A DNA stretch of 64,000 bases. Origin: Struthio camelus. Lineage: Eukaryota; Chordata; Aves; Struthioniformes; Struthionidae. Positions 31,681 to 34,600 of the stretch are shown piece by piece; the first letter of the stretch is position 1; the number at the start of each line of letters is the position of its first letter. Both the position numbers and the translations under genes were made by a program. The notes under the pieces are model-generated. The model made no database searches, was not told the DNA's origin, and saw nothing but the letters and a program-made list of their open reading frames with translations. Location of the stretch: positions 23,247,068-23,311,067 of the forward strand of contig NC_090952.1 of NCBI RefSeq assembly GCF_040807025.1. The letters run 5' to 3'.

Positions 31681-34600
31681 CTGGGTCACAAACGGAAAGA
31701 AAGCGTTGTTTAGCTCTTCCTGGACGGGGATGTTTGGAATCGCACGGCCGCGGCCAGCGAGTCTGAATCGCAGGCTCTCCCTCGCGCTGGCCGTGACCGG
31801 ACGTGCCACAAATGCACCTTTGAGGCCAGCGGACTTGCATAACACATTAACTCCTCTGCAGACTACTTGAAAAGGCTCCCTTGATTCTTTTTTCTGATGC
31901 TATATTCAGATATATGGTAAAGGCAGTTTGGATTGGTTTTGACTGGACTAAAAACTCCCACGGCTATAGGAACCGCATCAGGAACCCATCACAGCCATCT
32001 CCGTTTTGGGCAGGCACCTCGACACTGATGCTTTGCAAGCAGGACAAGGGAGCTCCTGCTACGGAGAGCTCCCGCTGCCAGGGGCTGTCCGGCACTGCGA
32101 TCCCTCAGTGCTGCCGGAGCCGGCACCGCTGTCAGCGGAGTCCCCGGAGACCGAGCCCGGGCAGCAAACCTGGCTCTTTGGATGCACTTTGCATCCCAAA
32201 GCTACAGAGATGTAAACATGTCAAACTCCACCAACACCGGGAGAGAAAGGGCCCGCGAGGCAGCGCCGGACTCACTTCGTACGCCTGCGGACTTGTCAGG
32301 CACCGGGCGACAGGCCCGCAGCACGCCGGGAGCGTGGTCGTGAGCGGGGGACCGCTGTGCGTCAGCAGAGGCTTCAGGTAGCTACAGGGACGGTTAAGGA
32401 AGAAGCAGGAACGGGGAGATGCCGGTCACCGAAGGGTCCCTGGTTTTGGGGATACACAGCTGGGAGGACAAACGGGATGTGACACTTGCTGCTAGGTGCC
32501 GGCAGGCTGGGGGGACGCAGGGCGCCGCAGAGGGTGCCCGCGCTCCCAGCCTGCGAGAGCCCAGCGCGAGCGCCCTGCACCTCGCTCAGCCGCAGGCGCT
32601 CGCTTCTCACGGCTGCGGGCCCGAGAAGGCGCAAGGCGAAACCCGACGGCGCGCTGGGAAAGCAAACGCCGGCTACGGAGCGAGCCAGTCGCGCCCGGAG
32701 CCAACGGGGCTACCCGAGCCCGCGGGACGTGGCACCCCGCGCGCCGACCGCCGGTCAAGGATACTTGTGGTCGAAGTTGTACCACATGCGGAAGAGCCAG
32801 GCGCTTTCTGCCTTCGTACTCCTCCTCTCACTTTCCGGGACGCCCTGCGAGAGAGCAAAACGTTAGAGAGGGCCAGGACGACGCATCGACCTTGCTGGGA
32901 GAACTGGAGCCTCCGCGGGGCACCAGGTCACCCCCCCGGGACCGCAACACACCTTCCTCTGCCTTTTCAGAGGAAACCTTTGGATGGCAGAGAGCAATAA
33001 GGATATTCATGCCACGTTAGGCTAACGTCCTTCCAGCCCTACGCCGCGCATCTCGTAGCGGACGGCAGCCTTAGGGAGGCAGCATCAAAGCAGGGCGAGC
33101 ACGGAGCGGCTGTTTTTCTGCTGCAGCCTTCCAGTTTCTGGCCCCAAGCTCTTAAGGGGCCTCGGAGCCAGCAGCTGCATCCAGACATCAGATTTAACAG
33201 TGACTGACAGGTCCAACCTCCATCGATCTCGCCCGAGATGTTATATGCAAATAATCCTGTGTCATGGGGATTCCTGCCTTCCTTTTGGTTGGGGAAAAAA
33301 TATAAAACGGTTTGGAGGCGACTATGAATACAATTACATATTTCACAGAAATTTGGCTTTCGGATTTATGGCTCCGGGCTGCCTCTAGCATTTGACGCTT
33401 CCTCGCCAGGAAGTGAACAGCTCAGCAAACGGCTCCGAAGTAAAGAAACCTCCAAGGGGCAAAACTTGTACTGAAATCAATGAGAGTCTCAGCCACAACA
33501 CGACCGGGCTGCAAACGCCTGGGTCCTCCTGCAGCAAAGAGAGCGCTGGGCTACGGGGCAGCTAGCTCCCTGCCGCGGGGCTCCGGCGCTCGTCCCGCCG
33601 CGGTCGGTGTTCCTCCTTGTGCCAGACAAGCACGCGCAGGGAACGGGAGGGCAGGGCAGAGGTTCAGGGAACAACCTCCGGGTAAAAATGGGACTGAAGA
33701 TGCTACATAAAACGGGTCAGTAAATGGCATTTCTGTCCTGCATCCAGTACGGAAATGATGCAGAGAGCGGGCTTTATGTCCTTAATACTCAAACTGAAGC
33801 CTCAGGAGCAGGAAGACTACAGTGGTAACTTCAGACCCCTGAGTCCTCCATGTCACGTACATTTTGATTTTAGTTTCAATGACATATCACATTTTCTTGC
33901 TTCCATGTTTATAAGCAAGAAAGCAAAACCAGCAGACGTACTGGGGCAGTAACCCGGACCGACTAAACAGTGCGGTGTTATTTCCATGGTCGTCTTGCAG
34001 GCTGAATAAAAGAAGGCCTCAGTTATAACGACAGAGGGCACAGAAAAGAAATCATTCGGGCTGACTGCAAACGCTTTCACCAAAGGCACTGAAAACCCTC
34101 CTACGGCTGGAAGGGAGACGAGCACAGAAGAGCATTCACAAGATCTCGGCTGCGATCTCCGCGCCCAAGAGCGGAGCGCAAATTCCTCTCCGAAGACCAC
34201 CCGAGGGCTCGCGGCAGAGCGCTGCACTCACCACGTTTTCCTGGTCTGCGTCCACACCAACTCTGGGGAGGAGAAGACAAGTACCCCGTTAGGACATGCA
34301 AGCCCACGCCGGCGCGCACCACCACGCCGGGGGAAGCTCCCTGTTGTCCCTAGAGCAAGCAAAGCGCTTTCGCCGGTCTTCCCTCCTACGGGAAGGGGCA
34401 GCCGTGGCTAGGGGCACACGGGGGTGCTCGCCCCGACCCCCCCGCAGCGCGCAGCTCCCGCGGGAAGCAGCGGCAGCGCTCGCGGCAACTCACAGCACAA
34501 GCGCGTTAATACCGCCGTCCAGGGCGGCAAAAGCAAAACTTTAAGCCGAGCCCACGCTGAAGTCCCAAGGAAGCGCGGTGCCTCCCCCCCGCGCGGGGCG

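Follow-up and report, generated by a model that had tools for sequence, protein, structure and literature searches.

Does the ostrich gene SLC9A6, which codes for the endosomal sodium/proton exchanger NHE6, contain three introns of the minor, U12-dependent class, and if it does, how old are they? The question arose at a 64 kb stretch of DNA (C11:23247068-23311067, hereafter the window, whose own positions are used below), where a first-pass annotation had placed the third such intron of a 16-exon gene at 32382..32764. U12-type introns make up less than 0.5% of introns, and human SLC9A6 is named a minor-intron-containing gene (MIG), the number and place of its minor introns not being given in the passage that names it (PMC6865273). 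A review that counts SLC9A8 among U12 genes notes that a few MIGs carry two minor introns, or even three (PMC8329584). MIDB is reported to count, in both human and mouse, 50 MIGs with two minor introns and 3 with three (PMC6717393), which agrees with the annotation's premise that most U12-containing genes have a single one. A gene with three is therefore uncommon, though of a recognised sort.

Results

Gene model and identity

Exons were located by tblastn with a human NHE6 query, splice sites were placed by hand to keep the reading frame open, and the product was then compared with an independent PDB sequence. The coding region of SLC9A6 lies at 31405..51292 on the minus strand and comprises 680 codons plus a stop (31407-31405); the ATG at 51292, the first of that frame, is the putative start. 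The spliced model has 16 exons, the number first proposed, and its product of 680 open codons aligned from residue 31 to the end with PDB NHE6 (9s0r) at 1380 bits, with a single one-residue gap. This was the best PDB match, versus 835 bits for NHE9, in a list from which an SLC9A7 chain was absent. The full-length match to NHE6 upholds the annotated gene name. SLC9A7 and SLC9A9 were discarded as identities because both have separate loci in the genome, and no PDB chain matched over the full length better than NHE6.

Upstream of SLC9A6 lie four plus-strand open stretches at 52655, 52949, 53921 and 55024 (range 52655-55164), which we take to be MMGT1/EMC5. MMGT1/EMC5 is the upstream neighbour expected for SLC9A6, head to head with it, and the window shows that arrangement. 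The two start codons are about 1.4 kb apart, so that a promoter common to the MMGT1/EMC5-like gene and SLC9A6 is possible. Just past exon 1, in intron 1, short peptide patterns recur in several frames at 50400-51030, apparently a tandem repeat, and this stretch sits inside a segment of strong GC skew. On the other side of the gene, a Pfam search of the six frames of positions 1-30000 (30 kb downstream of SLC9A6) returned no family at E <= 0.001, and an Rfam search of the whole window at gathering scores returned no match.

Three U12-type introns in SLC9A6

Introns were classified by plain consensus matches rather than by a trained classifier. The donor consensus was RTATCCTTT, with positions +1 to +8 as given in PMC2831892 and the usual T at +9; the branch consensus was TTCCTTRAC, its core from the same source, with the customary R and a distance of about 10-20 nt from the 3' end.

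Intron 14, the one that raised the question, is a GT-AG intron of 383 nt (32382..32764, minus strand, phase 2, residue 554) between exon 14 (32765..32844) and exon 15 (32276..32381), both on the minus strand in the spliced model. Its exon/intron boundary reads caa/GTATCCTTGA (the slash marking the junction). The donor GTATCCTTG (32756..32764, minus strand) scores 8/9 and the branch site TTCCTTAAC (32393..32401, minus strand) 9/9, with the branch A 12 nt from the last intron base; the coordinates, motifs and 12-nt distance first put forward for this U12-type intron were thus exact. The intron splits the codon AA/C, the Asn of FDHNYLKP, and splicing leaves the junction FDH-N-YLKP intact, as in PDB NHE6; both flanking exons match NHE6.

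The other two lie further upstream in the gene, also on the minus strand. Intron 10 (35491..37079, GT-AG, 1589 nt, phase 0, residue 429) starts with GTATCCTTTA and ends with TTCCTTAACGCATGCAAACGTAG. Its donor GTATCCTTT (37071..37079, minus strand) and its branch site TTCCTTAAC (35505..35513, minus strand, 15 nt from the intron end) both score 9/9. Intron 7 (37828..38048, 221 nt, phase 0, residue 326) is of the AT-AC type, with ATATCCTTTT at its start and GTCCTTGACAGTCTGCAAC at its end; the donor ATATCCTTT (38040..38048, minus strand) scores 9/9 and the branch site GTCCTTGAC (37838..37846, minus strand, 11 nt from the intron end) 8/9. Both pairs of terminal dinucleotides, AT-AC in intron 7 and GT-AG in introns 10 and 14, are U12-compatible.

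The first pass had spoken of at least three U12-type introns, at protein positions of about 325, 428 and 554; we compute 326, 429 and 554, and the count among the 15 introns of the coding region is exactly three. In the other 12, the U12 donor score was 2-5/9 and the best branch-like 9-mer 5-6/9. One of these, intron 8 (37502-37721), has a GC donor, cag/GCAAGCTCCA, and an AG acceptor, and is a GC-AG intron of the U2 type. Two of the three U12-type introns (7 and 10) are in phase 0, which runs counter to the general phase bias of U12 introns (PMC7367187).

An additional donor-like motif, ATATCCTT, occurs in intron 13 at 33006-32999, about 150 nt before exon 14. It was discarded as an extra U12 donor, not being at an exon end, and no further exon was noticed by eye between it and exon 14. 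It is possibly a chance occurrence, possibly a decoy minor-class donor.

Chance expectation

Across the 64 kb of the window, 8 copies of RTATCCTT were counted where 1.49 would be expected, three of the eight being the SLC9A6 U12 donors. Only two sites in the window score 9/9 as U12 donors, and both are at SLC9A6 exon ends (introns 7 and 10). When the threshold is set at 8 or 9/9, 26 of 11,056 GT/AT sites pass, 23 of them not at SLC9A6 exon ends; on the acceptor side, a branch-like 9-mer scoring at least 8/9 stands at the right distance from 86 of 15,247 AG/AC sites. With these rates taken as independent, the probability that at least three of 15 introns pass at both donor and branch by chance is about 1e-12.

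A second estimate concerns how often such a gene should arise. The U12 share of introns is about 0.35%, and at frequencies of 0.35-0.5% a 15-intron gene would have at least three U12 introns with a probability of 2e-5 to 5e-5, assuming independence. U12 introns do cluster in genes (PMC7367187), which goes against that assumption. The observation of three U12-type introns in SLC9A6 is correct and far beyond chance.

The same positions in paralogues of the ostrich genome

With the NHE6 protein as query, we searched the genome to which the window belongs (262 contigs, 1.45 Gb in total). Besides SLC9A6, the search returned loci reading as SLC9A7 (C1), SLC9A9 (C9) and SLC9A8 (C18), and six plasma-membrane-type NHE loci. 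These locus names are putative, assigned by match ranking.

SLC9A7 and SLC9A9, in which the first pass had suggested looking for the same signals, had U12 donors at all three homologous positions, and all six scored 9/9. At the positions of introns 7, 10 and 14, respectively, the donors were ATATCCTTTT, GTATCCTTTC and GTATCCTTTC in SLC9A7 and ATATCCTTTA, GTATCCTTTG and GTATCCTTTT in SLC9A9. Read by frame, intron 7 is AT-AC in SLC9A6, SLC9A7 and SLC9A9. The branch sites, determined partly by eye, were TCCCTTAAC, ATCCTTAAC and TTCCTTAAC in SLC9A7, and TTCCTTAGC, TTCCTCAAT (weak) and TTCTTTAAC in SLC9A9. For SLC9A7 intron 14 the automated score was 6/9, because the BLAST hit extended upstream of the exon, and TTCCTTAAC was found by eye. 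For SLC9A9 intron 10 the automated choice, TTCCTCCAC (7/9), lies farther upstream, and TTCCTCAAT (7/9, by eye) is better placed.

At the other 12 positions of SLC9A7 and SLC9A9 the top donor score near the junction was 7/9 (22 of 24 donors scored, that of intron 13 having no value in either gene; acceptors had no value at introns 8 and 12 of SLC9A7 and at intron 12 of SLC9A9). At one of these U2-type positions, intron 9 of SLC9A7, a branch-like 9-mer reached 8/9 with a donor of 6/9. With the branch site of SLC9A9 intron 10 weak in addition, a branch score alone proves little.

The SLC9A8 locus (C18; about 2806-4711 of L056 and about 112-1870 of L057) has a different composition. At the intron-7 position it has an AT-AC U12 intron, ATATCCTTTT...TTCCATAAC...AC, at the same place and in the same phase (...SAL/MLKH versus ...TAL/VTKF). 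The intron-10 position, in contrast, is occupied by an intron of the U2 type, ata/GTAGGTATCT, with a pyrimidine-rich acceptor, at the same residue and in the same phase. A class conversion between the two paralogues, SLC9A8 and NHE6, is probable at this position.

For the six plasma-membrane-type loci, five stretches were fetched (the locus near C1 152.93-152.94 Mb was left out), and four of them cover both positions (L061 does not). These four (L060, L062, L063 and L064) align straight through the intron-7 and intron-10 positions, at 19-30% identity, and therefore seem to be without either intron. No 9/9 U12 donor was present in the five fetched stretches.

The claim that a triple-U12 gene is a rarity stands, but SLC9A6 is less of a special case than had been suggested, since its three introns recur in SLC9A7 and SLC9A9.

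Minor spliceosome components and predicted outcome of retention

The genome contains at least one locus each for the U12 snRNA (150 bits) and the U6atac snRNA (134 bits). The U12 snRNA locus reads GTAAGGAA, a segment that presumably pairs with the branch site, leaving one A bulged.

Leaving intron 7, 10 or 14 in the transcript shortened the predicted product to 364, 484 or 556 residues, respectively; the stop codon then lay 893, 1901 or 479 nt upstream of the final exon junction. Decay is therefore predicted for transcripts that retain any of the three. An early stop upstream of the last junction also results from retention in 14 of the 15 SLC9A6 introns, so that a premature stop is not special to the U12 introns.

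Discussion

Splicing class and age of the three introns

We hold with high confidence that introns 7, 10 and 14 of SLC9A6 are U12-type and that they share their ancestry with the introns at the same positions in the paralogues. Either spliceosome can in principle remove a GT-AG intron, and the introns might be real but removed by the major spliceosome, their U12-like letters being coincidence or relics. U12-type introns are expected to lack a polypyrimidine tract before the acceptor, and the acceptor region of intron 14 would suit such removal, being fairly pyrimidine-rich (0.76 of positions -20 to -4; 0.65 and 0.47 before the acceptors of introns 7 and 10, versus 0.65-1.0 in the other 12 introns). 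The donors argue the other way: the three agree with the U2 consensus at no more than 2, 3 and 5/9, versus 6-8/9 in the other 12 introns, and a scan of donors alone found no U2-like donor of at least 7/9, of the twintron kind, within 60 nt of any of them. Intron 7 is moreover AT-AC, and the U12 letters have been kept at all three positions in two paralogues. We consider removal by the major spliceosome very unlikely. Still more improbable, to the point of being virtually dismissed, is that the U12 introns were newly gained in SLC9A6 in a lineage-specific event. Nothing was found in support of a recent gain, and it is contradicted by the same positions and the same class in SLC9A7 and SLC9A9, as well as by the AT-AC subtype, which intron 7 has in common among these paralogues and which is also present in SLC9A8.

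U12-type introns of shared descent being the preferred reading, the set of three is probably ancestral to the NHE6/NHE7/NHE9 clade, because SLC9A7 and SLC9A9 are U12 at all three positions, SLC9A8 shares the AT-AC intron, and four plasma-membrane-type loci show no break at the first two. All three U12 introns would then probably have been present in the gene from which the vertebrate endosomal exchangers NHE6, NHE7 and NHE9 descend, and the AT-AC intron 7 is probably as old as the common ancestor with NHE8. By parsimony, the simplest reading is that intron 7 was already an AT-AC U12 intron before the split between NHE8 and NHE6-7-9. Intron 10 would, on the same reasoning, also predate that split, with one class change since. 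Intron 14, compared in SLC9A6, SLC9A7 and SLC9A9, would be at least as old as the NHE6/7/9 split.

Relation to described minor introns

Several relatives have been described. An AT-AC U12 intron of the fly gene Nhe3 has its orthologue among the U12 introns in human SLC9A7 (PMC2831892, Table 2), which places such an intron in NHE6/7/9-type genes, as with SLC9A6 intron 7. Since intron 7 is the only AT-AC intron among the three, it is probably the same intron as that of fly Nhe3 and human SLC9A7. For Nhe3 that table gives a single U12 intron, versus three in SLC9A6. Two U12 positions are common to animal and plant Na+/H+ antiporters (PMC2426677), so that some positions are shared over this range too. 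The Arabidopsis exchanger genes NHX5 and NHX6 have U12 introns like SLC9A6, and their U12 splicing needs U11-48K (PMC4892727; related, PMC3422263). Human SLC9A8, a relative with a known U12-type intron, differs in that this intron is said to be spliced correctly, the defect arising from cryptic U2 sites in its vicinity (PMC8329584). The ostrich SLC9A8 has the AT-AC intron of position 7 and, unlike SLC9A6, is U12 at only one of the two positions compared. SLC9A7 has been listed as a twintron gene (PMC3564746), the mark of a twintron being an additional pair of U2-type splice sites at one position. In a further parallel, duplications in the families of voltage-gated sodium and calcium channels have left most mammalian members with several U12 introns (PMC2831892); most have two, versus three in SLC9A6.

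Among the matches listed in a search of the text of open-licence papers, we found no text stating three minor introns for SLC9A6 and no report of retention in SLC9A6 itself. An article on dog domestication names SLC9A6 and a minor-spliceosome gene, in a passage without a statement on SLC9A6 introns (PMC4710014). Given this coverage, the count of three may well stand in some database or table. The triple minor introns of SLC9A6 belong to a known kind, the gene itself has been named before, and the pattern is old and largely documented: SLC9A6, SLC9A7, SLC9A8 and SLC9A9 are in print as minor-intron genes, as are fly and plant counterparts. The new part is modest and consists of the 9-of-9 assignment to the U12 class across three paralogues in the ostrich genome, and of the contrast of NHE6/7/9 with SLC9A8 and the plasma-membrane-type NHEs.

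Possible weight of the minor introns in expression

Introns 7, 10 and 14 are presumably each removed by the minor spliceosome, so that every SLC9A6 transcript would have to go through minor-class splicing three times. If any of these steps failed, the RNA would be kept in the nucleus or degraded by nonsense-mediated decay, so that the output of NHE6, NHE7 and NHE9 should fall together when the minor spliceosome is limiting. A dependence of SLC9A6 output on the minor spliceosome, which the first pass had expected to be unusual in degree, is plausible; such a joint fall of the three exchangers appears to us evenly balanced between right and wrong.

The opposing view, which concerns only this functional part, is that the introns are U12-type but carry no regulatory weight, being neutral leftovers in one gene family. 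It accords with a 2023 pan-eukaryotic survey whose title argues for neutral processes as a possible explanation for much of the evolution of minor introns (PMC10639083), and with the Nhe3 mRNA of a fly U6atac mutant, which was slightly but not significantly increased (PMC2952598). Other systems speak against it. In RNU4ATAC patients with Roifman syndrome, in whom U4atac is defective, a minor intron of the paralogue SLC9A9 (which one is not stated in the passage concerned) was retained at 85.4% versus 2.7% in unaffected individuals (PMC4667643). Nhe3 protein was lower in miso-null fly ovaries (PMC12084885), and the U12 splicing of both NHX5 and NHX6 was defective in u11-48k Arabidopsis (PMC4892727). 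We regard neutrality as a serious possibility, one that falls somewhat short of an even chance.

Whichever applies, the family offers a clean, testable case of genes that went through duplications without losing their three minor introns. It also holds its own contrast, with one U12 and one U2-type position in SLC9A8 and neither of the two introns at four plasma-membrane-type loci. Should the serial dependence be true, loss of NHE6, NHE7 and NHE9 could add to the neurological features of minor-spliceosome disease. It is conceivable, though we think it rather unlikely, that SLC9A6, SLC9A7 and SLC9A9 form one co-regulated triple-U12 set and are perhaps the very three genes of MIDB. If they do, their serial splicing steps would turn endosomal pH control into a sensitive indicator of how active the minor spliceosome is, and would tie minor-spliceosome disease to Christianson-like features.
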